From: Paracoccaceae bacterium
GTDB taxonomy: Bacteria > Pseudomonadota > Alphaproteobacteria > Rhodobacterales > Rhodobacteraceae
Assembly (NCBI GenBank): GCA_021648025.1
Contig: JAKITO010000006.1
Span: 1-64,000 of the forward strand
Direction: 5' to 3'
DNA: 64,000 nucleotides
The position numbers were made by a program, and so were the translations under genes. Positions 8,840 through 25,595 of the stretch are shown here, in pieces. Each line of letters begins with the position of its first letter. The stretch's first letter is position 1. Under the pieces are notes generated by a model that saw only the letters and a list, made by a program, of their open reading frames with translations, searched no databases and was not told the DNA's origin.

Positions 8840-9460
8840 TCAGATATCAAAAAACACCGTCTCATCCGGCCCTTGCAGGTAGATATCAAACCGGTACACC
8901 ACCTTGCCATCCTCCTCGGACCGCTTTGCAATCAATGTCTCTCGGCGGCGTTCCCACTCAATCCCCGTGATCACCGGATCGCTTGCATTGGCCGCATCCT
9001 CATCGTCAAAATAAACCCTGGTACTCAGCCCCACATTGATGCCGCGTGCCACCAGCCACAGGTTGATATGCGGTGCCATCATCTGGCCATTGCGCCCCAT
9101 TACCATTCCCGGTTTGACCGTATCAAACCCCCATTCACCCGTGTCAAAATCAGTAATCACCCGGCCCCAACCACGAAACCCTTCTTCGACGTCACCCTCA
9201 CTCTCTGGATGGGCGTAAACCCCGGCGCAATTGGCCTGCCATGCCTCAAGCAGTACGTCCTTGACCGGGCTGCCAACGCCGTCAATCACCAACCCTTCAA
9301 CCCGAATGCGTTCACCGGACGCATGCGGACCGGCGATATCCCAACCCAGTTCGCGGTTATAGATTTCGAACCCCGCCGCCCCCGGAGCCAACCCGATATG
9401 CACAAATGGCCCTGCGGTTTGTGACGGCGTTTCGCGCAGGTATTTCAAAGATTGTACCAT
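8840..9460 (-). CDS. pcaG: Protocatechuate 3,4-dioxygenase alpha subunit
   Basis: 206 residues, typical alpha-subunit length. Beta-sandwich intradiol dioxygenase fold: TPSQTAGPFVHIGL at the N terminus, RIRVEGLVIDGVGSPVKDVLLEAWQAN in the middle and APHINLWLVARGINVGLSTRVYFDDE towards the end. The alpha subunit lacks the complete Fe ligand set, as expected. With PcaH it cleaves protocatechuate to beta-carboxy-cis,cis-muconate. Its ATG overlaps the pcaH stop by one base, with the RBS inside the last pcaH codons. It is the last gene of the pobA-pcaC-pcaH-pcaG run. Confidence 0.95.
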   Translation of the reverse strand: MVQSLKYLRETPSQTAGPFVHIGLAPGAAGFEIYNRELGWDIAGPHASGERIRVEGLVIDGVGSPVKDVLLEAWQANCAGVYAHPESEGDVEEGFRGWGRVITDFDTGEWGFDTVKPGMVMGRNGQMMAPHINLWLVARGINVGLSTRVYFDDEDAANASDPVITGIEWERRRETLIAKRSEEDGKVVYRFDIYLQGPDETVFFDI

Positions 9461-10188
9461 CAGTTGCCCTCCAGCCGATTCTCAAACAAGGTCGATCGCC
9501 TGCCGCGCAAAATGATGTCGAATTTATAGGCGATACTGTCGAGCGGAATAGTCGCGTTCATATCCAGCGGTGCGATCAACTGATCAATTGCCGACTTGTC
9601 AGGGATTGCATTGACGATCGGGCACAGGGGGATCAGCGGGTCACCCTCAAAGTACATCTGGGTGATCAGGCGCTGGGCAAAACCGCAGCCGAACACCGAA
9701 AAATGGATGTGTGCGGGCCGCCAAGAGTTGATCCAGTTGCGCCAGGGGTATGCGCCAGGTTTCACGGTTCGGAAAAAGTAATAGCCGTCCTGGTCCGTCA
9801 AAGTCCGCCCACAACCGCCGAAATTCGGATCTATCGGTGCCAGATAGGTGTCTTTCTTGTGCCGATACCGCCCGCCCGCATTGGCCTGCCATATCTCCAC
9901 CAACGTGTTCGCAACGGGGCGTGCATTTTCGTCCAGAACTCGACCGTGAACAATGATCCGCTCGCCGATGGGCGATTGATCTTTGGCGGCAAAGTTCATC
10001 AAAAGATCATGGTCAAGTGCCGCAATATCACCGTGCCCAAACACCGGGCCGGTGATTTCACTGGACGTATTTTCCAATGATATCAGCGCCTTTTGCGGTG
10101 ATCGTGCCACCGAAGTCTTGTAGTTCCGCGAAAGGGCAGGCGGGTGCCAGTTGCGGTCACGTTGATAAAATTCACCTTGTTCCGGCAT
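9460..10188 (-). CDS. pcaH: Protocatechuate 3,4-dioxygenase beta subunit
   Basis: 242 residues. The four non-haem Fe(III) ligands are visible: Tyr108 (in GGRYRHK), Tyr147 (in GAYPWRN), and His160 and His162 (in [12 protein letters not shown]). Their spacing is that of characterised PcaH. This is the catalytic subunit for intradiol ring cleavage of protocatechuate. A GAGG lies 5 nt upstream of the ATG. The 62 bp between pcaC and pcaH hold a CCCCGGA/TCCGGGG palindrome. Confidence 0.96.
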
Positions 10189-10214
10189 TGGGGCCTCGTG
10201 CTGTTGAAACGTCG

Positions 10215-10233
10215 CCCCGGATCAGGTCCGGGG
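10215..10233. repeat. REP-like palindrome CCCCGGA-tcagg-TCCGGGG
   Basis: A perfect 7-bp inverted repeat with a 5-base spacer lies between pcaC and pcaH. A related sequence with the same GGTCAGGTCCGGGG core occurs at 18331-18354. Palindromes of this type are often dispersed in alphaproteobacterial intergenic DNA. Within the pca operon it could cause mRNA processing or partial termination. Confidence 0.5.
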
Positions 10234-10250
10234 TTGTGATGGCTAGGGGT

Positions 10251-10631
10251 TCAGACATCTTTTTCCATCTCGGCATAGGTTGTACGCGCCAGTTTCAGCG
10301 CGTGATTGGCGCGGGGCACCCCGGCATAGATCGCCACATGCTGGAACACTTCCATAACGTCCTGTTTGCTGGCGCCGGTGCGGGCAGTGGCGCGGATGTG
10401 CATGGGGATTTCGTCGAAATTGCCCAAGGCCGCCAACAAGGCAAGGGTCAACATCGAACGCTCGCGTGCCGGGATCGCGTCGCTGGCCCAGACATTGCCC
10501 CAGGCGGTTTCGGTGATCAGGGTCTGGAATGGTTCGTCAAATGCGGTCTTGCCCACCTCGGCCCGGTCCACATGGGCGTCGCCCAGCACCTGGCGGCGAA
10601 CCTTCATGCCTGTCTTGTAACGATCTGTCAT
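10251..10631 (-). CDS. pcaC: 4-carboxymuconolactone decarboxylase
   Basis: 126 residues with the ATG at 10631, giving the standard N terminus MTDRYKTGMKVRRQVLGDAH; an upstream in-frame ATG at 10667 would overlap pobA and add 12 atypical residues. AhpD-like all-alpha fold with the conserved VLGDAHVDRA start and HIRATARTGASKQDVMEVFQHVAIYAG core. It decarboxylates gamma-carboxymuconolactone to the beta-ketoadipate enol-lactone. It lies 16 bp downstream of pobA. The partner steps pcaB and pcaD are not in the window. Confidence 0.93.
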   Translation of the reverse strand: MTDRYKTGMKVRRQVLGDAHVDRAEVGKTAFDEPFQTLITETAWGNVWASDAIPARERSMLTLALLAALGNFDEIPMHIRATARTGASKQDVMEVFQHVAIYAGVPRANHALKLARTTYAEMEKDV

Positions 10632-10647
10632 CCAAGATCCCAATCCA

Positions 10648-11904
<1,257 letters not shown>

Positions 11905-11980
11905 GACCGGCGAACGTGTTTGTTGAGCATGTCGCGCTTTATTGAATTCAGATGGCAGGACCCGGGTTTTCAGGCCGACC

Positions 11981-14860
11981 TTAAAGAAGATCGGTGAACG
12001 ACACGGTTTGGTCGGCGAACACCAGCTGGTCGATATCAATCAACTTGTCCCGGCCCTCATAATTGCCATCGCTCCCGCCATCGGCACTGTCGGTGACAAT
12101 CAGCTCGATCACGTTTTCACCACGCGTGCTGTTGTAATAGGTGTGGGTTTCAAAGGTAAAGTCATCCAGATTGCCGTCAAAGAACGCCTTGTCATTTTTT
12201 GCTTTGCCTTTGTCGTTCCATTCGTTGCCCGAGATATAGTCATCACCAAGCCCGCCGTAAAACTTGTCACCGCCGGCACCGCCGTAAAGAACGTCGTTAC
12301 CGTTGCCGCCTTTTAATACGTCAAAGCCATTGCCGCCATATAGCCGGTCGTCCTGGCCCCCGCCCAGCAGTTTGTCATTGCCATCGCCGCCTTGCAGATT
12401 ATCCGCGCCAAGGCCGCCGATCAACAGGTCGTTGTTGTCATGGCCGTTCAGATCATCATCGCCCAGGCGGCCAATGATGATGTCGGATCCGTCCAGCCCG
12501 TCAATCCGGTTGCCGCCCCGTCCACCAAACAGAAAGTCATCGGTTCTGACCGTGAAATCCCGAAACTGGATAAATTCAACATCCTCGTCAAGGATGATGT
12601 TCTGCTGGCCTTTTGAGATTTCAAGCACGCCCTGACTGTTCCAGGAAAAGGAGTATCCAGACGCAGAGCCGTTCAAATAGGTATAATCATCCCGGGTATC
12701 CGAGCCAAAGATGTCTTTGCTGTCCAGCTGCGTGTCAAACACCATAAAGTTCGAAATCGTGCCGTCGAAATGGCTATTGATTTTGTTCACTTCGCCCGGT
12801 TCGTTGTTCCAGCCAGCAGCGCCAACGATCAAGGCCTCTTTGTTGACGCCCCAATTGACCTTGATATCCTTGTCATATGCGACCCGCGCGCCATTCAGAA
12901 AAAGCTCGGCACCTTGTGGGCCGAACGACAGGGCAAAATCATAAGACCCGCCCGCGGATATGGCATGCTTGACCTCAAGGTAATGCGATTGTTCACCATC
13001 CTGAATGCGCACCACCAGGTGGCCCAAGGGGTGGACATAGGCCGTCATATGCCCGCCTTCGCCATACCCGGATGCGTCTTTGGAAAACAGCGCCTGATAG
13101 CCGTCCAAACTGGTCGGGCTAAAGGAAAAGGCAATGGTTCCCTTGGTCAGGTCAACCTGCTTTGAGTGATCGAACACCAAAGCGATGCGGTCATCAGATG
13201 AAAATTCAGTGCTTCCGACAGTGGCCAGCACAGGATCGCCGGTGCCCTTGGCCAGGCCAAGATCCTCGGCCGTGGGCCGGCTGAGTGGGGGTTTGATAGT
13301 GCCGGTATCAGCAGAGATGTCAGTCGGCGCCAGCGCCTCTTTCAGGTTGTCGATTGAGTTGATGATTCCATAGGTTGGCGCGGCTGTATGTTCGATATCC
13401 GCCAAGGTGATCAGATCCCCATAGACGGTGACCGTCCCCAGCCGGTCATCATCATGCGCGCCCCCGCCATTGCCCTGATCGGAATACAACGAGATGATCG
13501 AGTGATCAATCACCCCGTCGCCATCGGCGTCACCGTACCTGATCGAACTGATTTGCGTGGTGTGACCCTCAAGTACAATCCGGTCGCCTTCGCCGCGCGA
13601 ATAATCGGTGATCACGTCATGGCCCAGATAGTCGACCCAATGGTCGTGCAGATATTGGTTCTCGCCCGCCACGCCGGCCCAGTTGATGGTGCCGTCGTCG
13701 CGGGTGTGCTTGGTGATAATGCGTTCCTTGGCATTGATAAGCGTTTGGAAGTAAAAGATATCCGCGCCGCTGCCACCCGTCAGGACATCATCCCCCGGAA
13801 TCGGCTGGTTGGGATAAACCTGCCCATCGGTCAGCTCGTTCACCGCATCGGTTTCGTCGCGGCCCGGCTGGTAGAAAATCTCAGGTTCGCGGGCATCGGC
13901 CTGACTGATCAGCAGGTCATTGCCGGCCCCGCCCCACAGGCGGTCTTCGCCGTGGCCGCCATCCAGGATGTCGTCGCCCAAACCGCCCCAAAGCCTGTCG
14001 TTGCCATAGCCGCCCTGCAACACATCATTGCCGTTAAGACCTTTGACCATGTCGTTGCCGCGCCCGGCATTGATACCATCATCCTCGGCGGTGCCGGTGA
14101 CAGTTGTGCCTGCCTGGCCTTTGATGATCATGTTCAGATCGCGTGACATTGTGCCATCTTGGTTGACGCCGAAATCGGCCAGAAGATCCAGCAGGGTATC
14201 CGAAGCCACGTCCAGTTGTTCAAACAATGGCACCAGATTGGCCATGTTGGCGTCGAACCGCGCGTCGCCGCCCAAGCCGGGTTCAATCGCGTTGGCCAGG
14301 GTGATCATGTTGTTGCCGCCCAGTTGCTGGTCATACATCTGAACATCGCTTACATGTCCCAGTAACAACGAATGCGCATCGTCTTCGTCCTTGTTCCAGG
14401 CATGGGTGCCACCAATCACCAGATCATTCTTGTTGGCTTCCAGGCCTTGGGTTATGCCCGGCTCAGAGGCGACCAACACGCCGTTCAGCCAGATATTCAA
14501 CCCGGCCTCGCCAAAGGAAAAGGCAAACTGATAGGTGGTGTGCGAAGACAGGATGACGTCCGGCACGGTGATGGATTCGGCGCCCTGATCGGTCTCGATC
14601 GACATGACAATCTGCCCGTCCTTGATCCAGACGGTAAAATCCCCGGCGGTGGTGCCCTCCTGATCTTTTGAGATCAGCGCATAGTTCCCTGCCAACCGGT
14701 CAATCGAAAAGCCAAGCGATATGGTGCCTGCCTCCAACGCCATCGCGCTTTTGTGATTGAGATCTTTGTAGTCGCCATAACTACCGGTATAGGTGTGTGA
14801 ACGGACGGATGAGTATACAGAATCTATGTTCAGCGGTTGCGAATTTCCGGCATCAGGCAT
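11981..14860 (-). CDS. Large secreted LamG-RTX-LamG-RTX calcium-binding protein
   Basis: 959 residues with no N-terminal signal peptide, as expected for a type I secretion substrate. Domain order: concanavalin-like/LamG (about 30-195); RTX block GGxGxD nonapeptides (about 256-316); a region with an EF-hand-like DADGDGVID (444-452); second LamG (about 550-715); second RTX block (about 775-880); and an acidic C-terminal region (880-959) that may carry the secretion signal. RTX repeats fold on Ca2+ outside the cell; LamG domains usually bind glycans or other surfaces. No catalytic domain was recognised, so an adhesin or matrix protein is likelier than an enzyme. The ATG is preceded by AGAGGA. 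No type I exporter genes are nearby. Confidence 0.85.
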   Translation of the reverse strand: MPDAGNSQPLNIDSVYSSVRSHTYTGSYGDYKDLNHKSAMALEAGTISLGFSIDRLAGNYALISKDQEGTTAGDFTVWIKDGQIVMSIETDQGAESITVPDVILSSHTTYQFAFSFGEAGLNIWLNGVLVASEPGITQGLEANKNDLVIGGTHAWNKDEDDAHSLLLGHVSDVQMYDQQLGGNNMITLANAIEPGLGGDARFDANMANLVPLFEQLDVASDTLLDLLADFGVNQDGTMSRDLNMIIKGQAGTTVTGTAEDDGINAGRGNDMVKGLNGNDVLQGGYGNDRLWGGLGDDILDGGHGEDRLWGGAGNDLLISQADAREPEIFYQPGRDETDAVNELTDGQVYPNQPIPGDDVLTGGSGADIFYFQTLINAKERIITKHTRDDGTINWAGVAGENQYLHDHWVDYLGHDVITDYSRGEGDRIVLEGHTTQISSIRYGDADGDGVIDHSIISLYSDQGNGGGAHDDDRLGTVTVYGDLITLADIEHTAAPTYGIINSIDNLKEALAPTDISADTGTIKPPLSRPTAEDLGLAKGTGDPVLATVGSTEFSSDDRIALVFDHSKQVDLTKGTIAFSFSPTSLDGYQALFSKDASGYGEGGHMTAYVHPLGHLVVRIQDGEQSHYLEVKHAISAGGSYDFALSFGPQGAELFLNGARVAYDKDIKVNWGVNKEALIVGAAGWNNEPGEVNKINSHFDGTISNFMVFDTQLDSKDIFGSDTRDDYTYLNGSASGYSFSWNSQGVLEISKGQQNIILDEDVEFIQFRDFTVRTDDFLFGGRGGNRIDGLDGSDIIIGRLGDDDLNGHDNNDLLIGGLGADNLQGGDGNDKLLGGGQDDRLYGGNGFDVLKGGNGNDVLYGGAGGDKFYGGLGDDYISGNEWNDKGKAKNDKAFFDGNLDDFTFETHTYYNSTRGENVIELIVTDSADGGSDGNYEGRDKLIDIDQLVFADQTVSFTDLL

Positions 14861-14874
14861 CGATTTTCCTCTTT

Positions 14875-14908
14875 GATTGGCAGTCGTCAGGGATTGGCAG
14901 TCGTCAGG
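14875..14908. repeat. 17-bp perfect tandem duplication upstream of the RTX gene
   Basis: GATTGGCAGTCGTCAGG occurs twice back to back (14875-14891 and 14892-14908), starting 15 bp in front of the RTX start codon. It lies within the 5' leader or promoter of that gene. Confidence 0.95.
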
Positions 14909-15321
14909 ATTTGAAGACTAAGGAACGATTAAGGGAGAATTGTGGCACTGCAAACGAATGGGACCAGATTAAGCCCGGGTCGGCGGTTAGTTGCGTAAAG
15001 TCGATTATAGCATTGAAAAAAAACGAAAAAACTTGCATTCGGCAATCAAGACTTGGACCGTCCGGTGGCGAAAATTCGCCGGAATTGTGGTTTTAAGGTG
15101 GCCTATTTCCGCTGACCAGGCCAACTTGGGTGGTTCCGTTTGCCCCTGGCAGGCCCCGGGTTTTGATGGCCCGGGAAAATACCCGGTAAGGTTTAGGCCA
15201 GACCGGACCTGTTTGAAAATCTTCGCTTGATACCGTGTGATGGGCCGGCAATCTCCGACCAGCAACTTGCGACCCGGCCAAAGAAATGTCGCGTCAATGT
15301 CATTGGTCGCGGGTGATAAAT

Positions 15322-15350
15322 AAAACAGCCCGTTTACCCGACGGGCCATT
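15322..15350 (-). terminator. Minus-strand Rho-independent terminator-like hairpin
   Basis: Read on the minus strand, GCCCGT-cgggtaa-ACGGGC is followed by TGTTTTATTT. Polarity and U-rich tail fit termination of leftward transcription, yet the nearest gene to the right (15394-16842) is on the plus strand. It may end an antisense or small RNA. Confidence 0.4.
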
Positions 15351-15393
15351 TACTGGTTTCATCTACTTGCCGCAGTTCGTATCATTTCCGTTA

Positions 15394-16842
15394 ATGATCC
15401 AGCAAACCGAACCATTGCGTGGCCGACAGATTGGCCGACAGATTGCCTTTGTGGCACTGATGTTGACCCTGATTCCAGGCGCCGCCCTTGCCCATGCATC
15501 CGAACAGGGGTTTGTGCTGCTGTTGCCCACTGGCGTTTATATTCTGGCCGGAACAACAGCTGTGGCATTGACGATATTTCTGGTGGCGGTTGTGCCCGGG
15601 GGTGCCTTGAAGGCTGCCTTCAGGCCCCGAAACCTGATGCGCGCGCGCGCCCACGTCTGGGCGCGTCATGCCGCCAGTTGCTTGTCCTTGGCGTTGTTGT
15701 CTTGGTTGATCTGGGTTGGCTGGACCGGTCCGGGCGATCCTTTGTCCAACCCGCTGCCGTTGTTTGTCTGGACATTGTGGTGGGTCGGCTTCGTCACGTT
15801 GCAGGGCCTGTTCGCCAACTTTTGGGCGTGGGTCAACCCGTGGACCGGGCCGGTCGCCGTGACTCGGGCTTTGTTGAACTTGCGCCCATTTTTGCGCTTG
15901 CCCGCGTCACTGGGGTCCACCCCGGCGCTGGTCACGTTTCTGGCGCTGGTTTCCATCCTTCTGGCCGACCCGGCCCCGGCTGACCCGCATCGGTTGGCGG
16001 GGTATGTGTTTGCCTATTGGCTGTTTACATATTTGGCGATGTTGGCGTTTGGGCCGCGCTGGCGGTATCGCGGCGACGGGATTGCCGTCTTGATGCGTGT
16101 CTATTCGCAGATGAACCTGTTCGGGCGCGCAGGGCCTGCTGGGCGCCACGTGGTCTTGGGCCTGCCCGGTTGGCAGGTTTCGCGGCGCGCAGCACCACCA
16201 TTCGGTGTGGCGGTTTTTATCCTGGTGTTGCTGGGAAGCGGCAGCTTTGACGGGCTGAATGAGACCTTCTGGTGGCTGGATATTCTGGGGCTTAACCCGC
16301 TGGAGTTTCCGGGGCGGTCGGCGGTGATCGGGCAAACACTAATAGGGCTTTTCGTTGCCAACCTGGCGTTGATCGCGGTGTTTGTCCTGTCCATTCGGCT
16401 GGGGCTGATGTTGGTACAGGAACGGGGGCAAGAGCGGATCGCACTGATGCCGGTCTTTTGCCTGTTTGCTCCGTCGATCCTGCCGATTGCGCTTGGTTAT
16501 CACATTGCCCATTATCTGCCCGGGTTTCTGGTCAATGCGCAATACGCCCTGGCCGCTGCAAGTGACCCGATGGGAACCGGCGCGGACCTGTTGGGGTTGG
16601 GACAGTTTTATGTCACCACCGGGTTTTTCAATTCGCAAAACTCGGTCCGGGTGATCTGGCTTTCTCAGGCCGGCGCCGTTGTCGGCGGGCATATTCTGGC
16701 GGTAATGCTCGCGCATACCCTGGCGGTGCGCCAATTCAGAGAGGGGCGCAAGGCGGTGCTGGTGGGGGTGCCATTGGCGCTGTTCATGGTGCTGTATACC
16801 CTGTTCGGCCTGTGGCTCCTGGCATCTCCGCGCGGAGTCTGA
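15394..16842 (+). CDS. Polytopic membrane protein of the family annotated as fenitrothion-hydrolase-like
   Basis: 482 residues from the ATG at 15394; the longer frame starting at 15286 would place the signal segment internally. The N-terminal hydrophobic segment ends in GAALAHA, and about ten further membrane spans follow. The C-terminal part with GYHIAHYLP and GQFYVTTGFF resembles membrane proteins that databases name fenitrothion hydrolase, a label of uncertain biochemical meaning. Function is unknown. It stands directly before the ABC importer and the dehalogenase. Its stop codon lies inside an 11-bp tandem-repeat array. The ribosome-binding site is weak. Confidence 0.6.
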   Translation: MIQQTEPLRGRQIGRQIAFVALMLTLIPGAALAHASEQGFVLLLPTGVYILAGTTAVALTIFLVAVVPGGALKAAFRPRNLMRARAHVWARHAASCLSLALLSWLIWVGWTGPGDPLSNPLPLFVWTLWWVGFVTLQGLFANFWAWVNPWTGPVAVTRALLNLRPFLRLPASLGSTPALVTFLALVSILLADPAPADPHRLAGYVFAYWLFTYLAMLAFGPRWRYRGDGIAVLMRVYSQMNLFGRAGPAGRHVVLGLPGWQVSRRAAPPFGVAVFILVLLGSGSFDGLNETFWWLDILGLNPLEFPGRSAVIGQTLIGLFVANLALIAVFVLSIRLGLMLVQERGQERIALMPVFCLFAPSILPIALGYHIAHYLPGFLVNAQYALAAASDPMGTGADLLGLGQFYVTTGFFNSQNSVRVIWLSQAGAVVGGHILAVMLAHTLAVRQFREGRKAVLVGVPLALFMVLYTLFGLWLLASPRGV

Positions 16843-16920
16843 GCGGAGTCTGAGCGGAGTTTGGGCAGAGTTTGGGCAGAGTTTGAGCAGAGTTTGAGTC
16901 TGAGTTGAGTCTGAGTTGAG
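16834..16920 (+). repeat. 11-bp degenerate tandem repeat, eight copies
   Basis: Units read GGAGTCTGAGC (16834, 16845), GGAGTTTGGGC (16856), AGAGTTTGGGC (16867), AGAGTTTGAGC (16878), AGAGTTTGAG (16889), TCTGAGTTGAG (16899, 16910). The array begins in the last codons of the membrane-protein gene, includes its stop codon, and ends about 105 bp before the binding-protein start. Confidence 0.9.
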
Positions 16921-17025
16921 TTTGATCGCGCTCAAAACACTGGACAAATGCGTTTATCGCTTGCACACTAACAAGTAATGAGGCCGCGAACTGGCCCGGA
17001 TGGCAACCAGCATGGGAGAAAAGCA

Positions 17026-18318
17026 ATGACCAACCAATCAACACCCCCTAAGGGGATTACCCGGCGAAATCTGATCAAGACCGTGGCTGCGGGTGCTGCT
17101 GTCACGTCGCTGCCGCTTTGGGCACGCTATGCGCAGGCACAAAGTTCAGAGCCGATTCGCATCGGTTTTCAGGCGCATAAGACCGGCATTGGAGCCGCCT
17201 ATGGCCGTTGGTATGACCGTACCACCATGGCAGCAGCCAAGGCGATCAACGATGCAGGCGGCATCAATGGCCGACCGGTGGAAATTGTACTGGAAGACGA
17301 TGGCACCGATCCCAAGCGCGGCGCAGAGGTGGTCGAGAAATTCGCCACTCAATTGAATTGCGACGTCGGCTTTGGCACCTTGTTCAGCCATGTCGTCATC
17401 GGTTCGGCCCCCCGCGCGGGCGAATTGAAACTGCCTTATTTTGTGGTTTCCGAAGGGCATCACGTGGCCAGCGGCATGCTTAATCGCTGGACCATCCAGC
17501 CCGGCATTACGGATGTGAAAAGCCAGGTTCAGGCGATGGCACCCTTTGTCAGTTCGACCCTTGGCAAGAAGGTCACGATGGTTTTCCCCGACTTTGCCTT
17601 TGGCCACGACCACCGCGACTTTTTCACCGCGGCGCTAGAGGCGCAGGGCGGCGAGGTTCTGGCCCATATCGCCATTCCGCCGTCCGAGACCAGTTTCACC
17701 AAGTATTTCCCGAAAATCCCCCGTGATACCGAAGTGATCTATCACGTCATGGTCGGCCCGGCGGTTCTGACATTCGTCAAGGAACTGGGCGAGTTCTTTG
17801 GCCCTTCGCGCCCTGAGATGTTCGGCTTTATCGACAGCCTTGAAGCTGTTGATCTGGCCAACCCCGGTCTTGAATACCTGGATGGCTCGTATTTCTGGGA
17901 AGGCATGCCCCGGTACGCGCAGGCTGATCAGACCTCGTTTGACAAGAATTTTCGCGCGGCTGTGGGGATTGATGCCAACGGAGCCTCTGTCAGCGATCCG
18001 GCGGATGTGTCGACCTATGCGCATATGTTCGGCTGCTGGGAGACGTTGTATGTGATCAAGGCGGGCATGGAATCGGCCGGTTATCAGGGCCATGGCGATC
18101 GCGGCAAACTGATCGAGGCAGTCGAGGCGATCACCGACATGCCCCATTCCAACGAACACCCGCAAGGGGCCAAATTGTTCAACGGCAAGACCCATCAGGT
18201 GTTCGGGCCGCAGTACATATCCAAGATGGAGGGTGGCAAGCTGAACGTGGTCCACACCGCGTCGATCGAAGACACGCTGTATCCGGACGAGGTAGATTAC
18301 ACCAAACAACCCCTGTAA
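17026..18318 (+). CDS. ABC transporter periplasmic substrate-binding protein, branched-chain amino acid/aromatic type
   Basis: 430 residues from the ATG at 17026, preceded by GGGAGAAAAG. The N terminus has twin arginines (13-14) and a hydrophobic stretch ending at AQAQ (about 36-39), so it is exported. The body is a type I periplasmic-binding fold: IRIGFQAHKTG...AAKAINDAGGINGRPVEIVLEDD. Members bind branched-chain amino acids, amides, urea or aromatic acids. It heads a liv-type importer set (permeases and ATPases follow) that lies between the pob/pca operon and the reductive dehalogenase. A halogenated or hydroxylated benzoate is therefore a plausible ligand by context only. Confidence 0.88.
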   Translation: MTNQSTPPKGITRRNLIKTVAAGAAVTSLPLWARYAQAQSSEPIRIGFQAHKTGIGAAYGRWYDRTTMAAAKAINDAGGINGRPVEIVLEDDGTDPKRGAEVVEKFATQLNCDVGFGTLFSHVVIGSAPRAGELKLPYFVVSEGHHVASGMLNRWTIQPGITDVKSQVQAMAPFVSSTLGKKVTMVFPDFAFGHDHRDFFTAALEAQGGEVLAHIAIPPSETSFTKYFPKIPRDTEVIYHVMVGPAVLTFVKELGEFFGPSRPEMFGFIDSLEAVDLANPGLEYLDGSYFWEGMPRYAQADQTSFDKNFRAAVGIDANGASVSDPADVSTYAHMFGCWETLYVIKAGMESAGYQGHGDRGKLIEAVEAITDMPHSNEHPQGAKLFNGKTHQVFGPQYISKMEGGKLNVVHTASIEDTLYPDEVDYTKQPL

Positions 18319-18330
18319 ACGGCAATGCTG

Positions 18331-18354
18331 CTCCGGGCCAGGTCAGGTCCGGGG
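18331..18354 (+). terminator. Hairpin after the binding-protein gene, REP-like
   Basis: CTCCGGGCC-aggtca-GGTCCGGGG forms a 9-bp stem in RNA with two G-U pairs, 12 bp after the stop codon. It lacks a T-run, so it more likely trims or stabilises the binding-protein mRNA than acts as a full terminator. It shares its right half with the palindrome in the pca operon. Confidence 0.45.
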
Positions 18355-18383
18355 CGGCGTAGTCTGTTGTATTGACGCCGCAC

Positions 18384-18604
18384 ATGGAAATTGCGACGCC
18401 GATGAATTTTCGCCTGGGTTTGGAATTAGACAGGACGTGACGACTTTGAATACCATTCTTTCAATCTGCCAAACCGGCGGGGCAACCGCGCCAACCGCGC
18501 CAGAGGGCATGGCGAAGATCGAGTCTGCTGGTGAGGCCACCCTTAAGGGGTTTCATGCGCCGGTTGATGATTTCCGCGTAAAAGATGTGATTGAGATTTC
18601 GTGA
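18384..18604 (+). pseudogene. Decayed class III adenylate/guanylate cyclase fragment
   Basis: Frame from the GTG at 18437 ends with GEATLKGFHAPVDDFRV, which matches the C-terminal end of class III cyclase domains (G-E-x-x-LKG-x-x-x-PV-x-x-[FY]-RV). In a different frame at 18402 the stretch MNFRLGLELDR resembles the upstream 'FRIGINLGD' strand of the same domain. The catalytic metal and transition-state residues between them are missing. I infer a gene relic with deletion and frameshift, stranded between the binding protein and livH. Only the C-terminal match is reasonably clear. Confidence 0.4.
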
Positions 18605-18652
18605 TGCCATTACTGAATTGCCCCTGGAATAACGTTGTGACAACCTGACCAA

Positions 18653-19579
18653 ATGGATTTTGTTCCCTACCTCATACTGGCCTCTCTTGAAGGCGCTGTG
18701 ACGGCCGCCGTGCTGGCATTGACGGCCGTGGGCCTGTCGTTGGTATTTGGGGTCATGCGGGTGGTTAATGTCGCCCACGGAGAGTTCTTCATGCTGGGCG
18801 CGGTGCTGGCCTGGTGGGTGACGCAAAGCATTGGCGGGCATCCGGCCATTGGCTTTGGCGTCGCGTTGCTGGTGGTGCCCGTGATGGTCGGGCTGATCGC
18901 TGTGGTGGCGGATTTGACGGTGTTGAAACGTATCAATTATGACCCCGAGCGGACGATCATTGCCACCATCGGCATCCTTTATATCCTGCAACAGGTCACC
19001 TTGATGACCTATGGGCCGGATGCAAGACCGGTTGAGCCGCCGTTCAATACCCGTCTGGCAATACCGTGGTTCGAATTTGCCGATGGCGGCTTGCAGATGT
19101 ACTGGCCCTGGGGGCTGAGCACCACCAGTTACAAGTTGGCCGTCATCGGTTCGGCTGCACTTGTGTTGCTGGGGGTCTGGGGGCTGATGGCGCGAACCAA
19201 AATCGGCCTGTTGATGCGCGCCACCCAGTTGGACCGTGAAATGGCGATGGCATTTGGCATCCCGGTCGAGCGGATTTATGCGGTTGTTTTCGGCCTTGGC
19301 GCCGGGCTGGCGGCGTTGGGCGCGGTGCTGATCGTGCCGATCCAGCAGGCGCATTATCTGATGGGGCATGATCCCTTGTTGCTGGCCTTTATCGTGGTGA
19401 TCATCGGCGGGCTGGGCAGCTTGCCGGGCACCGTGGTGGCCGCGATCCTGATCGGGTTAAGCGATGGCATCATCTCGGTGTTCTTTTCGCCGACCCTGGC
19501 CAAGATACTGGCCACCCTGTTGGTGGCGATGGTGCTGGTGTTTCGTCCGCAAGGCCTGTTTGGGGTGAAATCTTCGTGA
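18653..19579 (+). CDS. LivH-type ABC transporter permease
   Basis: 308-residue inner-membrane permease of the branched-chain amino acid family. The N-terminal ALTAVGLSLVFGVMRVVNVAHGEF and C-terminal VVIIGGLGSLPGTVVAAILIG are family hallmarks; about eight membrane spans. It forms the translocation pore together with the next gene, with which it overlaps (GTGA). The gap to the binding-protein gene is 334 bp and contains a cyclase relic, so permease expression may rely on read-through or its own promoter. Confidence 0.9.
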   Translation: MDFVPYLILASLEGAVTAAVLALTAVGLSLVFGVMRVVNVAHGEFFMLGAVLAWWVTQSIGGHPAIGFGVALLVVPVMVGLIAVVADLTVLKRINYDPERTIIATIGILYILQQVTLMTYGPDARPVEPPFNTRLAIPWFEFADGGLQMYWPWGLSTTSYKLAVIGSAALVLLGVWGLMARTKIGLLMRATQLDREMAMAFGIPVERIYAVVFGLGAGLAALGAVLIVPIQQAHYLMGHDPLLLAFIVVIIGGLGSLPGTVVAAILIGLSDGIISVFFSPTLAKILATLLVAMVLVFRPQGLFGVKSS

Positions 19580-20520
19580 CTGTTACGGCGCGGATATGGG
19601 CCTTGCATCTGGGTGTTCTGGGGCTGTTGTTTGCCTTGCAATTCATCCTGCCCGCCTATCACCATGGCAATCTTGCGCGGATCATGGTGCTGGCCTCATA
19701 CGCCATCGGCTTCAACATTGCGTTTGGGTACACTGGTCTGCTTAGTCTTGGTCATGCCCTGTTCTTTGCCGCTGGCATGTATGGGATGGGGCTGGCCATT
19801 CACCTGTTCGACGCGACCCCGGCACCGGCATTGATTGCCGGTCTTGTGGTTGGGATCATTGTTACCGGAGTGGTTGGTTTTCTGGCGCTGCGCACCGCCG
19901 GGGTGGCGTTCATGATCGTGACGTTGATGTTCGCGCAGGCCGGCTATCTGACGGTTCTGTACTTTGGCAAATACACCCGGGGCGACGAAGGTTTTGTCAT
20001 CCAACAGGCCGAACGTGTCCTGTGGGGCATTGACCTGTCCAACCCGACCAACCGCTATTTCGCGGCGTTCATCCTGTTTTCGTTCTGCCTGATATTCACC
20101 CTGAAACTGGTCCAGTCGCCGTTTGGCAAAACCCTGATCGCCATCCGCGAGAACGAGGAACGCGCGCGCATGCTGGGCTATGATGTTTTCGCTCGAAAAC
20201 TGGTGGCGTTGATTATGTCGGGGGCGTTATCGGCGCTGGCCGGGGCCAGCTATGGCTTGTTGTTCGGCTATGTCGGGGCCAGTTTTGCCACGGTGCAATA
20301 TTCGATCTTTCCGCTTTTGTGGGTGCTGCTGGGTGGGGCAGGGACCCTTCTGGGACCACTGGTCGGCACCCTGTTCATGTTCTATCTGATCGACCTCTCC
20401 AGCGGTATCACTTCGGCCTATATGCTGATCGCGGGCGTGGTTCTGGTGTTGTTGACCTTGTTTGCCCCCCAGGGACTGGTCGGGGAAATACGCGCCCGGA
20501 TTTGGCGGTGGTTGCCATGA
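19576..20520 (+). CDS. LivM-type ABC transporter permease
   Basis: 314 residues, GTG start overlapping the livH stop. Multiple membrane spans; GYTGLLSLGHALFFAAGMYG and the cytoplasmic SPFGKTLIAIRENEERARMLGYD loop (coupling to the ATPases) are typical of LivM, as is the LGGAGTLLGPLVGT segment. It partners the preceding permease. It ends in an ATGA overlap with the first ATPase gene. Confidence 0.9.
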   Translation: MTVTARIWALHLGVLGLLFALQFILPAYHHGNLARIMVLASYAIGFNIAFGYTGLLSLGHALFFAAGMYGMGLAIHLFDATPAPALIAGLVVGIIVTGVVGFLALRTAGVAFMIVTLMFAQAGYLTVLYFGKYTRGDEGFVIQQAERVLWGIDLSNPTNRYFAAFILFSFCLIFTLKLVQSPFGKTLIAIRENEERARMLGYDVFARKLVALIMSGALSALAGASYGLLFGYVGASFATVQYSIFPLLWVLLGGAGTLLGPLVGTLFMFYLIDLSSGITSAYMLIAGVVLVLLTLFAPQGLVGEIRARIWRWLP

Positions 20521-21224
20521 CGATCCTGTCAACACGCGGCCTTTGCAAGAACTTTGATGGTCTGACGGCAGTGCAGGATGTTGATTTTGACCTGCCCCAA
20601 GGGCAGATCAGGGCGCTGATTGGCCCCAATGGCGCCGGTAAAACCACCCTTGTTGGCCTGCTCTGTGGGCGGATAACGCCAACCGCAGGCAGCGTCACCT
20701 TTGACGGGCGCGACATTTCAAACCTGCCGGCCCACAAGCGCATCAACCTTGGCATCGCCTATACCTTTCAGGTCACGTCGGTGTTTGCCAACCTCAGCGT
20801 GACCGAGAATGTCGCCCTTGCCGCGCGTCGCCGGTTCAGCGGTGCGGATGTGGCCGGCGCGGTGCAGGAGGCCCTGGCCAAGGTCGGCCTGAATGCGCGC
20901 TCGGAGCAGAATGCGGGCGATCTCAGCTATGGCCACCAACGCCTGCTGGAAATTGCCATGGGGCTGGTGCAACAACCACGCCTGTTGATCCTGGACGAAC
21001 CGACGCAGGGGCTGGCCGACACCGAAGTGGCGGATTTCAAGGCATTGGTGCGCGAACTGGCGCGCACCGCAACGGTGTTGTTGATCGAACACAACATGAG
21101 CGTGGTGATGGAACTGGCCGATTATGTTACCGTCCTGAACTTTGGCCAGATACTGGCCGAAGGCACCCCCCAGGAGATACACGCCAACCCGGACGTGCAG
21201 GCCGCCTATCTGGGGACCAAGTGA
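20517..21224 (+). CDS. LivG-type ABC transporter ATP-binding protein
   Basis: 235 residues starting at the ATG overlapping the livM stop; the open frame extends upstream into livM but has no reason to start there. Walker A GPNGAGKTT (36-44); a modified signature LSYGHQRLLEI in place of LSGGQ, as is usual for LivG; Walker B LLILDEPTQGL; switch His in LLIEHNM. It powers import through the LivH/M-type permeases. Confidence 0.92.
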   Translation: MTILSTRGLCKNFDGLTAVQDVDFDLPQGQIRALIGPNGAGKTTLVGLLCGRITPTAGSVTFDGRDISNLPAHKRINLGIAYTFQVTSVFANLSVTENVALAARRRFSGADVAGAVQEALAKVGLNARSEQNAGDLSYGHQRLLEIAMGLVQQPRLLILDEPTQGLADTEVADFKALVRELARTATVLLIEHNMSVVMELADYVTVLNFGQILAEGTPQEIHANPDVQAAYLGTK

Positions 21225-21919
21225 TGCTGGCGTTGCAATCCCTGAATGTCGCATACGGCAAGGCGCAGGTGCTGCGAGATCTGTCTTTGCATGTCGATGC
21301 CGGTGAAATCCTTTGTCTGCTGGGGCGCAACGGGGCGGGCAAGACCACGACCATGAAGGCAATCATGGGCCTGCTGCCGCTGATGTCGGGTGCTGTGGTT
21401 CTGGAAGGGCAGGTGATCAGCAAATTACCGGCCCACAATGTGCCACGCGCCGGGATCGGTTACATCCCGCAAGGTCGGCGCCTGTTTGGCGAGCTAAGCA
21501 TCGCCCAGAACCTTGAAATTGGCCTTATGGCGCGCGGCTCTGGCCAGGAGGTTCTGGAAAGTGTGCTGGAATTGTTCCCCCGCCTGCGCGAACGCTATCA
21601 TCAGCGCGCCCAGACCCTTTCGGGGGGCGAACAACAGATGCTGGCCACCGCGCGCGCGCTGTGTCTGGAGCCGAAAGTTCTGTTGCTGGACGAACCGACC
21701 GAAGGATTGCAGCCGTCGATGATCGAGGCGATCCGGCAGGTGATCATGATCATGCGGGATCGCGGCGTGGCAATCATTCTGGTGGAACAGCGGGTTGATG
21801 CGGTGTTGTCAGTGGCTGACCGGGTGTCGTTCATCGAAAATGGTCGCAATCTTGAGACGCTGGAGGCCGCAGAGTTACGCGCTGACCCGTCTATTCTGAC
21901 CCGGCATCTTGGGGTGTGA
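21224..21919 (+). CDS. LivF-type ABC transporter ATP-binding protein
   Basis: 231 residues. Either GTG 21221 or ATG 21224 could start it; the ATG sharing a base with the previous stop is preferred. Walker A GRNGAGKTT (34-42), the LivF-typical GYIPQGRRLFGELSIAQNL, signature LSGGEQQMLATARAL, Walker B VLLLDEPTEGLQPSM. It is the second ATPase of the importer and the last gene of that set; the dehalogenase starts 274 bp later. That gap shows no ORF or recognisable regulator site. Confidence 0.92.
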   Translation: MLALQSLNVAYGKAQVLRDLSLHVDAGEILCLLGRNGAGKTTTMKAIMGLLPLMSGAVVLEGQVISKLPAHNVPRAGIGYIPQGRRLFGELSIAQNLEIGLMARGSGQEVLESVLELFPRLRERYHQRAQTLSGGEQQMLATARALCLEPKVLLLDEPTEGLQPSMIEAIRQVIMIMRDRGVAIILVEQRVDAVLSVADRVSFIENGRNLETLEAAELRADPSILTRHLGV

Positions 21920-22193
21920 GACTGGACGTTTCAGTCGAAAACCATCCATCTGGACATTAACCTGTTCGGCTGACGAAGGCGGTGCATTGGCGGTGATTTG
22001 ACCAGGCCGGTGGAAACGTCGACTCTGGCCCAACGGTTGTACCTGTTTCACCACCCTCTGCGGCGCTGGATAAAGGTCAGTCTTCGATCGCTACGGATTT
22101 ACCCGATCAGAACAATCGCGAACTATCCCCTTGCGAAGCCGGTCAGTTTCCGCTGTTCTTGCTCTCGACCTCTCCAAACCAACAAGGCAGCCC

Positions 22194-25100
22194 GTGCCCC
22201 TTCGCTTTTTCTCGGACAAAAACCGGCCGGTTCACCTCGGGCCCTTCCCTCTGGAGCGGCTGACCCGGTATGCTCCGGGCGTTCTGCCTGATTTGTCAGG
22301 GGTTCCGCCCTTCACCCCTTTGGATTTTTCCCGCCCGGACCGTGCGCAATCCATCGTTAACGCGATGGGTGAATATCAGGCGATGATGGACGCGATCCGC
22401 GACGGGTTGGTCAACAAAGCCCGGTCCAAAGGCCCGCACGACAAGGTGGTGCGCGCCAACCACATCAAAAGTTTCGGCTATTTCTCGGACGCGTCCATGG
22501 TTGGTATTGCTGAGCTACCGCAATCGGCTTTGCTGACCAACCCGGTCCGTAACCCCGATATTGACCGTCTGGCCGAAGACCTGCGCACCCGTCAAACCAA
22601 AACGCTGGCCTCGGGTATCGACATGATCATGGCCGACCTCAAAGAATCGATGGAGGCCCCGCCAGCTACGATTCATGCCCACACCCACGCCATCACCTTT
22701 CTTTACGACATGCCCCGCGACCCCAACGCCGATGAACCGGGCACCGATTGGCTAAAGGATGCACAAGCCCACCGCGCCTGTCTGCGCGCCACCGAAACGG
22801 CGGTGGTTCTGGCCAATTACATCCGCCTTCTGGGCTGGGACGCCAAGGCGCATACGGCCACCAGCACGGATGTCGACCTGAACCAATTGACCATTGCCAC
22901 CGGGTTGGCCAGTCTGGAACAAGGCCGCCTGGTCAACCCCTATCTGGGCACGCGGTTCGGTGTGGCGGTGGTGACCACCACCTATCAAATGGCCTGCGAC
23001 GCCGCCCTTGCGCCGCAATCGCAACAGCCACGGTGGCGCACTCACGGTCCTGCCTGGTGGCTGGGCACGGGGTTTGCCAAATCTGCCCTTAATCTTGATC
23101 CTTACAAAAACCGCAATTTTGCCGACGGCCCGCATCCGTTTGAAACCCTGACCCGGGTGGACAAACCCACCACCCACATAGACGAGGCCCGCGTCGCCCG
23201 CGTCCCCAAACGCGCCGACCTGTTTGCGCGCGCACAATTCGGCGACATGGGGGCCAAACTTCAGGATGGTGCGAAAGGCGGGCATTATGTGCGTAAATCC
23301 GCGCCTTCATGCGCGCAACGCCGCATGCTTGGCGCGTTTGTGCTGTTGCAGGATGGGGCGCGGGGGCGGGGTGCGAAACCCGACGATCCCGCCCGCAACG
23401 CCGCCAATATCAAGGCCGCCAGTTATTTTCTTGGCATTGACGCAGTTGGCCTGTCGCGCTGCCCCGACTGGAGCTGGTATAGCCACGACGCCACCGGAGA
23501 GGTGATCAACCCGCCCCACGACCAAGCCATTTCGATGATCATTGATCAGGGTTTTGAGACCATGGAAGGGTCTTCCGGCGATGATTGGATTGCCGTGGCG
23601 CAAAGCATGCGCGCCTATCTGCGGTTTTCCCTGTTGGGCGGGGTGATCGCCCAGCAAATCCGCAATCTTGGCTATTCTGCCAAGGCACATTCGGTGATGG
23701 ACGGCGAGGTGCTGCAACCACCGCTGTTGCTACTGTCCGGCCTCGGAGAGGTCAGCCGCATCGGCGAAGTCATTCTTAATCCGTTCCTTGGCCCGCGCCT
23801 GAAATCCGGCGTGGTGACCACGGATATGCCAATGACCCATGACAGGCCGATCGACTTTGGCCTGCAAACCTTCTGCGAATCCTGCAACAAATGCGCGCGC
23901 GAATGCCCGTCGGGGGCGATCACCGCCGGGCCAAAGCTGATGTTCAATGGCTACGAAATCTGGAAATCCGACAGCCAGAAATGCGCCACCTACCGCATCA
24001 CCACCACTGGTGGTGCGATGTGCGGGCGGTGCATGAAAACCTGCCCCTGGAACCTTGAAGGTCTGTTCGCCGAGAAACCATTTAGGTGGGCCGCCATGAA
24101 CATCCCCCGCGCCGCCCCCCTGTTGGCCAGGCTGGACGATGCGTTAGGCCACGGAGAACTGAACCCGATCAAGAAATGGTGGTGGGACCTGGAGTTGGCG
24201 GACGATGGCGGCTATCATCCGACCTTGCAACCGGTCAATAAACGCGGCCTGCAAAAGGACCTTGATCTGCGCTACTCAGACCAAACCCTCGCCGTCTATC
24301 CGGCCCCTTTGGCGCCGCATCCCTGGCCTTATCCGTTCCCAATGGACCGCGAGGCGGGGATCGAAGCCTATCAGTCGATGATCACCGCCAAAGTGTACAA
24401 ATCCCGCCGGGCTGTGGGTGAAACCGGGGATTGGGATCACACTTACACCAACGATGGCACCAGCCCGGTGATACAGGTCGAAATCACCCAGGCGCAGGAA
24501 ATGGCGAACGGCGTGACCAAATACGAATTCCGCCTGCCCGGTGGTGGCGACCTGCCCCCATGGCAGGCGGGTGCGCATCTGGATATTGTCGTCGCACCGG
24601 AATTCCTGCGCCAGTATTCCATGTCAGGTGACCCTTTGGATCGCTCAAAATACCAGATCGGCGTGTTGCGCGAAGATCTCGGTCGCGGTGGGTCCGCCCT
24701 TTTGCACCGCATATTCAACCAAGGGCGCAAAGTGTTCATCTCGCGCCCCATCAACCACTTTGCGCTGGACCCAAATGCGCAACACACCCTGCTGATGGGC
24801 GGGGGCATTGGCATTACACCGATGATTGCCATGGCGCATGAATTGCACGCGCAAGGTGCGTCGTTCGAAATGCACTATTGCATGTCGTCACGATCCTCGG
24901 CTGGATATATTGACGATCTGGCTGCCGCCGCCTGGGCCAACAAAGTATCGCTGCACATATCGGACGAAAACACCCGCGCCGACCTCGACATGCTCCTGTC
25001 CGGCTATGGGCCAGGCCACCACGTCTATACCTGCGGTCCCGACCGGTTCATGTCCGGCGTGGCCAAAGCGGCAGAACGTCAAGGTTTCCCGGAAGAGGCC

Positions 25101-25433
25101 TGCCACTTGGAGTACTTCTCGGTCCCCGAAATCCCCGAATACCAAAACCACACCTTTACCCTGCGCCTGACAGACGGTCGCGAATTTCAGGTCCCCGATG
25201 ATCAGTCGGCCACCGACATCCTGGCCCAAAACGGTATCCACATCGATGTCAAATGCGCTGACGGCCTCTGCGGTACTTGCAAATGCACCCTGACCGCAGG
25301 CCAGGTCGAACACCGCGATTTCGTTCTGTCCAACGCCCAGCGTCAAACCAACATCATCCTGTGCCAATCGCGCGCCGCCCAGGCCGGTGCCACCATCGAA
25401 ATCGACTTGCCTTCCCATACCAAAGCTAACTGA
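22194..25433 (+). CDS. Self-sufficient catabolic reductive dehalogenase fused to FMN/NAD/[2Fe-2S] reductase
   Basis: About 1079 residues from the GTG at 22194 (AAGG 7 nt upstream; a TTG at 22131 is possible). Positions below count from 22131. RdhA region: an internal duplication, where LGWDAKAHTATSTDVDL (234-250) with NPYLGTRFGVAVVTTT mirrors LGYSAKAHSVMDGEV with NPFLGPRLKSGVVTTD. Tyr450 (SWYSHDATG) and Lys518 (SAKAHS) are candidates for the catalytic Tyr/Lys pair of respiratory-independent RdhA enzymes. Two [4Fe-4S] clusters: C582-C585-C588-C592P and C618...C631-C634-C638P. The C-terminal part is a phthalate-dioxygenase-reductase type unit: FMN site RQYSMSG (827-833), NAD site GGGIGITPM (890-898), plant-type [2Fe-2S] with C1042-C1047-C1050 and C1078. 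No Tat signal, so cytoplasmic. Family members use cobalamin to remove halogen ortho to a phenolic OH, for example from dibromo-4-hydroxybenzoate. The product would enter the PobA/PcaHG route encoded 10 kb away. Confidence 0.9.
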   Translation: MPLRFFSDKNRPVHLGPFPLERLTRYAPGVLPDLSGVPPFTPLDFSRPDRAQSIVNAMGEYQAMMDAIRDGLVNKARSKGPHDKVVRANHIKSFGYFSDASMVGIAELPQSALLTNPVRNPDIDRLAEDLRTRQTKTLASGIDMIMADLKESMEAPPATIHAHTHAITFLYDMPRDPNADEPGTDWLKDAQAHRACLRATETAVVLANYIRLLGWDAKAHTATSTDVDLNQLTIATGLASLEQGRLVNPYLGTRFGVAVVTTTYQMACDAALAPQSQQPRWRTHGPAWWLGTGFAKSALNLDPYKNRNFADGPHPFETLTRVDKPTTHIDEARVARVPKRADLFARAQFGDMGAKLQDGAKGGHYVRKSAPSCAQRRMLGAFVLLQDGARGRGAKPDDPARNAANIKAASYFLGIDAVGLSRCPDWSWYSHDATGEVINPPHDQAISMIIDQGFETMEGSSGDDWIAVAQSMRAYLRFSLLGGVIAQQIRNLGYSAKAHSVMDGEVLQPPLLLLSGLGEVSRIGEVILNPFLGPRLKSGVVTTDMPMTHDRPIDFGLQTFCESCNKCARECPSGAITAGPKLMFNGYEIWKSDSQKCATYRITTTGGAMCGRCMKTCPWNLEGLFAEKPFRWAAMNIPRAAPLLARLDDALGHGELNPIKKWWWDLELADDGGYHPTLQPVNKRGLQKDLDLRYSDQTLAVYPAPLAPHPWPYPFPMDREAGIEAYQSMITAKVYKSRRAVGETGDWDHTYTNDGTSPVIQVEITQAQEMANGVTKYEFRLPGGGDLPPWQAGAHLDIVVAPEFLRQYSMSGDPLDRSKYQIGVLREDLGRGGSALLHRIFNQGRKVFISRPINHFALDPNAQHTLLMGGGIGITPMIAMAHELHAQGASFEMHYCMSSRSSAGYIDDLAAAAWANKVSLHISDENTRADLDMLLSGYGPGHHVYTCGPDRFMSGVAKAAERQGFPEEACHLEYFSVPEIPEYQNHTFTLRLTDGREFQVPDDQSATDILAQNGIHIDVKCADGLCGTCKCTLTAGQVEHRDFVLSNAQRQTNIILCQSRAAQAGATIEIDLPSHTKAN

Positions 25434-25523: not shown

Positions 25524-25537
25524 TTGACCTCGCGCAA
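25524..25537. promoter_or_regulatory. FNR/NnrR-like box upstream of nnrS
   Basis: TTGACCTCGCGCAA fits the TTG-N8-CAA layout of CRP/FNR-family sites used by FnrL/NnrR in alphaproteobacteria. It lies 58 bp before the nnrS start, a position expected for activation. The inner bases are only partly symmetric. Confidence 0.4.
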
Positions 25538-25595
25538 AGACATCATCTTACGCAGCTCTAAAACCAAACCCAGCCGTTGCTTCAAGAATTGCCTC

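Follow-up and report, generated by a model that had tools for sequence, protein, structure and literature searches.

A dehalogenase gene near 4-hydroxybenzoate genes

The window analysed here is a stretch of 64,000 nucleotides from a Paracoccaceae bacterium (contig JAKITO010000006.1, positions 1 to 64,000), in which rdhA, a gene for a self-sufficient catabolic reductive dehalogenase, lies near a complete ABC importer and the genes pobA and pcaCHG for 4-hydroxybenzoate and protocatechuate degradation. An earlier note had read these genes as a catabolic island by which a halogenated hydroxybenzoate is taken up, dehalogenated and ring-opened. The genes it named are all present as open frames, and when the window proteins were scanned against Pfam and NCBIfam, the dehalogenase and the aromatic genes exceeded curated cut-offs: rdhA (22194-25433, plus strand) matched TIGR02486 with 197 bits (cut-off 160.35), and on the minus strand pobA, encoding 4-hydroxybenzoate 3-monooxygenase (10648-11841), matched TIGR02360 with 691 bits (cut-off 539), pcaC, encoding 4-carboxymuconolactone decarboxylase (10251-10667), matched TIGR02425 with 192 bits (cut-off 156), and pcaH and pcaG, encoding the beta (9460-10188) and alpha (8840-9460) subunits of protocatechuate 3,4-dioxygenase, matched TIGR02422 with 365 bits (cut-off 296) and TIGR02423 with 247 bits (cut-off 126). 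Judged by these scores, each above its equivalog cut-off, pobA and pcaCHG are genuine. The sole further lower-pathway gene searched, pcaB, had a best match in the same genome of 285.5 bits, below the cut-off of 355.75, with a model that also gives sub-cut-off matches in unrelated control genomes. As the note had stated, the two halves do not form one operon; a gene for an RTX-repeat protein (11981-14860, minus strand) and a membrane-protein gene (15286-16842, plus strand) lie between them. GC composition does not change clearly at either rdhA or pobA, and a promoter and terminator scan returned site counts about equal to those of shuffled sequences.

The rdhA product contains two cobalamin-type domains and two [4Fe-4S] clusters, followed by a flavin/NAD(P)H/[2Fe-2S] reductase. 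Translation from the GTG at 22194 gives 1079 amino acids, and an alternative TTG at 22131 gives a reading of 1100 amino acids; the shorter form is the likelier product because aligned relatives begin near the GTG. The best match in the PDB is NpRdhA (6zxu/4ras, E about 1e-158), and in a phmmer alignment residues 22-130 and 183-757 extend across nearly all of NpRdhA, which points to a duplicated cobalamin-type domain. The second match, phthalate dioxygenase reductase 2pia (E 3e-55), covers residues 781-1088 of the 1100-residue reading, where a Fer2 domain is also present. Residues S422, M423, Y426, K488 and R552 of NpRdhA are kept in the window protein, as in all 77 aligned sequences including it, and Y496, K558 and R622 of the window protein (1100-residue numbering) align with Y426, K488 and R552. 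The cluster motifs CESCNKCARECP, CGRCMKTCP and CADGLCGTC are intact, with the two [4Fe-4S] motifs at 582 and 631. No twin-arginine motif was seen when the N-terminus was read directly, so a Tat signal appears to be absent. These features bear out the proposed cytoplasmic, cobalamin-type enzyme with its own NAD(P)H reductase, and on sequence grounds rdhA codes for a fusion of a catabolic reductive dehalogenase with a reductase of its own, an enzyme of a published kind. Both the fused enzyme and its occurrence in this bacterial group are already known. By analogy with its characterized relatives, the protein probably strips bromine from phenol-like compounds.

The same genome carries a second, unfused reductive dehalogenase on another contig (G000:C63:163908-164726, or L128:8894-10165; minus strand), which has an open frame of 424 amino acids, scores 163 bits against TIGR02486 (cut-off 160.35) and contains the motifs CDICSKCADACP and CAICMRVCP, with a Tad-pilus-like gene nearby. 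A search of this genome with Pfam PF13486 reported the second protein alone and not the window rdhA, and TIGR02486 detects both. Downstream of rdhA in the window lies a gene for an NnrS-family membrane protein (25524-26780), which is found in the same place in the sister genome G001 (87%) and in G002 (54%) and had no match at 80 other rdhA loci (E 1e-8).

Association of pobA with rdhA

The surroundings of rdhA were compared in 80 loci from named genomes, the best of 335 candidates. The DNA of these loci spans at least 23 kb in 47 of the 80 and 5.5 kb in the shortest, and absence of a gene here means absence within that DNA. Neighbour counts by tblastn cover all 80 loci, and the rdhA alignment and tree comprise 77 rows, namely 76 loci and the window (L019, L024, L028 and L059 were left out on account of open reading frame picking). 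At seven of the 80 loci pobA abuts rdhA, where about 0.1 would be expected with one pobA per 4 Mb, and at one further locus it lies 5.6 kb away. The arrangement varies among the seven: rdhA is followed by pobA after a 10-base gap in L042, L044, L055 and L079 (Rhizobiaceae/Hyphomicrobiales) and is also followed by it in L076, pobA overlaps the start of rdhA by one base in L023, and the two genes are convergent in L072. In a genome of the family (L153) they are divergent, and in another genome (L152) pcaGHC and pobA are separated from rdhA by about 9.6 kb that holds, among other genes, a TRAP transporter; L154, which equals L076 in length and is probably the same contig, was left uncounted. On the rdhA tree, a quick tree in which gains and losses are not separable, pobA adjacency needs at least four changes with all 77 rows, also from well-supported branches alone, and one change if ungrouped rows are omitted.

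Co-occurrence across the family points the same way. Among 295 genomes, the dehalogenase part of RdhA has a close relative in 112 (partial or broken in some), pobA occurs in 199 (E 1e-90), and the solute-binding protein (SBP) of the importer in 74. Of the 112 genomes that have rdhA, 89 also have pobA, compared with 110 of the 183 that lack rdhA (odds ratio 2.57, p=0.0005). The conversion of bromo-4-hydroxybenzoate to 4-hydroxybenzoate and then to protocatechuate is thus supported for the gene family, and the PobA step is supported because rdhA and pobA adjoin in other genera and not because of an operon in the window. None of the papers listed in searches of an open-access library reports such a union of rdhA and pobA, as far as titles and the first lines of abstracts show.

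Several observations weigh against carrying this association over to the window and to the family at large. Four of the seven adjacent cases fall in one Rhizobiaceae/Hyphomicrobiales clade, and the co-occurrence test is a raw one that ignores kinship and genome size. Distances could be read for 69 of the 89 genomes with both genes, among the matches listed; the two starts lie within 12 kb in four of these 69, and in 55 the genes are on different contigs, where their distance is not visible. In the window itself, pobA is 10.4 kb from rdhA on the opposite strand, with the RTX gene and the importer between them. Taken together, a link of rdhA to pobA in the window is reasonable, if unproven, on the evidence of gene content and comparison.

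The sister genome G001 has the order pxp genes, CoA-transferase, pobA, RTX, membrane protein, importer and rdhA. The pcaCHG genes are lacking from its interval between CoA-transferase and pobA (L149, G001:C33), and pcaH was not found when searched in the whole of this genome, which is about 76% complete. In G002 and G003, pcaGHC-pobA stands beside the CoA-transferase gene. The proximity of pobA to rdhA is therefore common to the window and G001, and pcaCHG is variable, having been gained or lost within the genus. The RTX gene between pobA and the importer encodes a protein of 959 amino acids with laminin-G-like domains and is kept in G001 at 81%.

Among other neighbours of rdhA, the pxp genes seemed promising. 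They lie within 1 kb upstream of rdhA at 12 of the 80 loci, yet this arrangement needs two tree changes only and so counts as about one event. One supported clade, which includes Phaeobacter and Pseudophaeobacter, has 13 members, and in 12 of them (L003, L008, L010-L013, L015, L017, L018, L020, L021 and L081) pxpA- and pxpC-like genes stand just upstream of rdhA; in the window the distance from the pxp orthologues downstream to rdhA is about 14 kb.

The enzyme could also serve the general debromination and detoxification of ortho-bromophenols, so that pobA is near it in the window by accident and the PobA route is unnecessary. The varied neighbourhoods of rdhA (the commonest neighbour family within eight genes occurs at 13 of 77 loci) and the 23 of 112 rdhA genomes without a pobA match at E 1e-90 favour this, as does the range of the assayed enzyme JtRdhA, which according to the sections of PMC10463259 used here also takes bromophenols, bromoxynil, triiodophenol and bromo-hydroxyphenylacetate. 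However, the repeated adjacency of pobA, its several changes on the tree and the positive co-occurrence in genomes argue against it, and Table 1 of the same paper gives JtRdhA as about 15 times slower with 2,6-dibromophenol than with dibromo-4-hydroxybenzoate. We regard general detoxification as rather unlikely, and it is partly compatible with the explanation that we prefer. In another route, PobA and protocatechuate dioxygenase would act on 3-bromo-4-hydroxybenzoate directly and rdhA would be unneeded. In Pigmentiphaga kullae, as described in the part of PMC12016517 used here, this compound is indeed hydroxylated as the first step, by PHBH1/PHBH2. However, such a route leaves the repeated adjacency of pobA and rdhA unexplained, and we hold it to be highly improbable. 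Because the readings weighed in this study overlap, their probabilities need not total one together with that of the best explanation.

Our preferred explanation is that the window rdhA encodes a cytoplasmic debrominase of the JtRdhA and BhbA kind with bromo-4-hydroxybenzoates as its main substrates, whose product goes to PobA, PcaHG and PcaC, the importer being a separate module; we consider this probable. By analogy with JtRdhA and NpRdhA, for which the steps are known or proposed, NAD(P)H would reduce the flavin of the C-terminal reductase, and electrons would pass from the flavin through the [2Fe-2S] cluster and the two [4Fe-4S] clusters to the cobalamin. An ortho-bromine (or iodine) would then leave a phenol bound at the Tyr-Lys/Arg site. 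The main substrates would most likely be bromo-4-hydroxybenzoates and the product 4-hydroxybenzoate, which, as the comparative context suggests, PobA and then PcaHG and PcaC would convert further.

For the wider group we propose tentatively, with rather less than even confidence, that the fused RdhAs of marine and related Alphaproteobacteria joined pobA several times independently, that their main natural substrate is ortho-brominated 4-hydroxybenzoate derived from marine phenolics, and that an aerobic, carbon-yielding debromination route is widespread in the family. If this is true, a large share of the family, the 112 of 295 genomes with an RdhA relative, could debrominate natural phenolics in air at the expense of NADPH and feed the product into central metabolism. 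The unions of rdhA with pobA are the most useful outcome of this analysis, and they can be taken as ready genetic test cases.

The Urt-like importer module

The importer module opens with a conserved membrane protein (15286-16842, plus strand) that has no Pfam or NCBIfam match. It is followed on the same strand by the SBP (16978-18318; Peripla_BP_6), a HAAT-class protein in whose sequence a twin-arginine signal can be read, a UrtB-like permease (18653-19579; TIGR03409, 179 bits, cut-off 250), a UrtC-like permease (19576-20520; TIGR03408, 127 bits, cut-off 296), a UrtD-like ATPase (20517-21224; TIGR03411, 228.5 bits, cut-off 304) and a UrtE-like ATPase (21221-21919; TIGR03410, 245.8 bits, cut-off 285.8). 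The best NCBIfam match of the SBP is a urea SBP model, at 57 bits (cut-off 495). Urt (urea transporter) models are thus the top match for all five parts and none reaches its cut-off, and Liv models also stay below theirs. The importer is complete, as the earlier note had described it, but the label 'liv-type' is too narrow. Compared with known Urt/HAAT importers, the module has the same five-part architecture, with each part best against a Urt model, and differs in that its parts score under the Urt cut-offs and a family-less membrane protein precedes the SBP.

For comparison, the SBP locus was examined in 20 of the 73 other genomes with an SBP match, over 19.5 kb each; the loci were hand-picked for long contigs, and their SBPs are 70-84% identical to that of the window, matches down to 61% being left out. 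A relative of the membrane protein precedes the SBP in 19 of the 20 relatives, and both permeases and both ATPases follow in 19. Certain His, Trp, Pro and Gly residues of the membrane protein do not vary across 15 aligned sequences. A Foldseek search of the PDB with its AlphaFold model (pLDDT 77) gave no match at E <=0.001, which is no evidence for a new fold. It looks like a conserved unnamed partner of the Urt-like importer, outside the dehalogenation pathway.

The genes beside the SBP in these relatives point to nitrogen compounds. Hydantoinase A and B occur at 11 of the 20 loci and a molybdenum hydroxylase pair at 10, and 16 of the 20 hold a hydantoinase, a molybdenum hydroxylase or an allied enamidase-like, cl11, cl12 or AA_synth gene. 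On the window's own contig, about 75 kb from the locus, a cluster (G000:C56:97300-104500, or L156:8814-15983) matches these usual partners of the importer, with identities of 55% for the FAD subunit, 67% for the molybdenum hydroxylase, 65% and 49% for the uncharacterized proteins cl11 and cl12, and 59 and 43% for two AA_synth (PF06684) proteins. It is possibly a candidate N-heterocycle route. The plus-strand genes at 2641-8829 of the window, which encode an amidohydrolase, CobW, PxpB-like, PxpC-like and PxpA-like (YcsF) proteins and a CoA-transferase, suggest amide- or lactam-type chemistry, and those for the amidohydrolase, CobW and the Pxp-like proteins fit the import of such nitrogen compounds. 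Some of these genes have relatives near the importer SBP in three of the 20 genomes (cobW and amidohydrolase in one, pxp genes in two). From these sequence comparisons, the substrate of the importer would most likely be an amide, a ureide or an N-heterocycle.

The importer is also independent of rdhA across genomes. SBP and rdhA show no association (29 genomes with both; odds ratio 1.07, p=0.89), and they share a contig in 5 of the 29, at 5.2 kb in the window's genome and at least 132 kb in the other four. No importer gene was found at any of the 80 rdhA loci (criterion 45% identity over half the gene length), and neither rdhA, pobA nor pcaGH was found at any of the 20 SBP loci, 11 of which are in genomes with an rdhA match elsewhere. 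The SBP shares 70-93% identity with 21 orthologues, of which 20 have no rdhA nearby. Its mean column identity over 22 sequences is 79%, and this conservation gives no sign of a changed job.

These results divide the island that had been proposed. pobA does track rdhA, and this linkage holds in relatives, but the linkage of rdhA to the importer is seen in the window's genus only (window and G001). One can still hold that the importer takes up halo-4-hydroxybenzoate for RdhA, PobA and PcaHGC, the whole 16.6 kb being one unit with an importer newly recruited in this genus. Several points count for this and against separation of the two. rdhA is on the same strand as the importer and follows its last gene at a distance of 275 bp in the window and about 670 bp in G001, and no plus-strand terminator-like site was found between them in the window, so that co-transcription is possible. 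SBP and rdhA are on different contigs in 24 of the 29 genomes that carry the two, so a loose linkage is possible there. The window's own genome gave no close match to the usual hydantoinase A, the best being 34%. The best PDB sequence match of the SBP is 4ey3, titled as a complex with p-hydroxybenzoic acid, and 4-hydroxybenzoate binders are among its nearest solved structures (RPA0668, Z 32.0; RPA0985, Z 31.8). In that comparison, however, which used a model with pLDDT 73 and several low-confidence loops, they are tied with urea binders (31.6 and 31.2) and the amide receptor AmiC (31.1). The missing SBP-rdhA association, the Urt-like scores of all five parts, the close orthologues without rdhA nearby, and the hydantoinase- and molybdenum-hydroxylase-type neighbours with their matching cluster on the own contig also speak against the single unit, which we consider quite unlikely, and the importer was rejected as a halo-hydroxybenzoate transporter. 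The importer looks instead like a separate module that probably serves another food than halo-hydroxybenzoate. It may have been recruited to dehalogenation in this genus alone, because it and rdhA are same-strand neighbours in both genus members that show the two, the window and G001. In any case, it should not be labelled a halo-aromatic transporter from position alone.

Comparison with known dehalogenases

The window RdhA can be compared with several known reductive dehalogenases, whose properties are given here as described in the parts of PMC10463259 and PMC13101508 that we used. NpRdhA of Nitratireductor pacificus (4ras, 6zxu) is homologous to nearly the whole dehalogenase part and has the same catalytic Tyr, Lys and Arg, and it differs in having no fused reductase (PMC10463259). 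Putative bhbA homologues are widespread across the Roseobacter clade (PMC13101508). One of the proteins in that paper, the debrominase Ros_A3X954 of Roseobacter sp. MED193, resembles the second, unfused dehalogenase of our genome, with near-identical cluster motifs, and is not the counterpart of the window gene; MED193 also carries a fused rdhA of the window type (L020).

BhbA of Comamonas sp. 7D-2 was the first catabolic RdhA and lies on a plasmid cluster for bromoxynil breakdown (PMC10463259). Like the window protein, it is a fused catabolic enzyme in a route toward ring cleavage, but its plasmid cluster holds the bromoxynil pathway, whereas pobA in the window is 10.4 kb away and on the other strand. 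A close parallel in properties is JtRdhA of the marine bacterium Jhaorihella thermophila (PMC10463259), which shares with the window protein the fusion to a phthalate-dioxygenase-reductase-like part, the duplicated cobalamin domain, the absence of a Tat signal, the active-site residues and a marine setting. JtRdhA has been assayed, whereas the window protein is known from its sequence. The chlorinated analogues tried with JtRdhA in that report were not converted and were only inhibitory, which makes the chlorinated substrates suggested earlier for the window enzyme doubtful. In the same report JtRdhA carries out an NADPH-driven debromination of ortho-bromophenols that is coupled in air too, and its best substrate is 3,5-dibromo-4-hydroxybenzoate, in agreement with the activity that the earlier note had given for relatives of the window RdhA.

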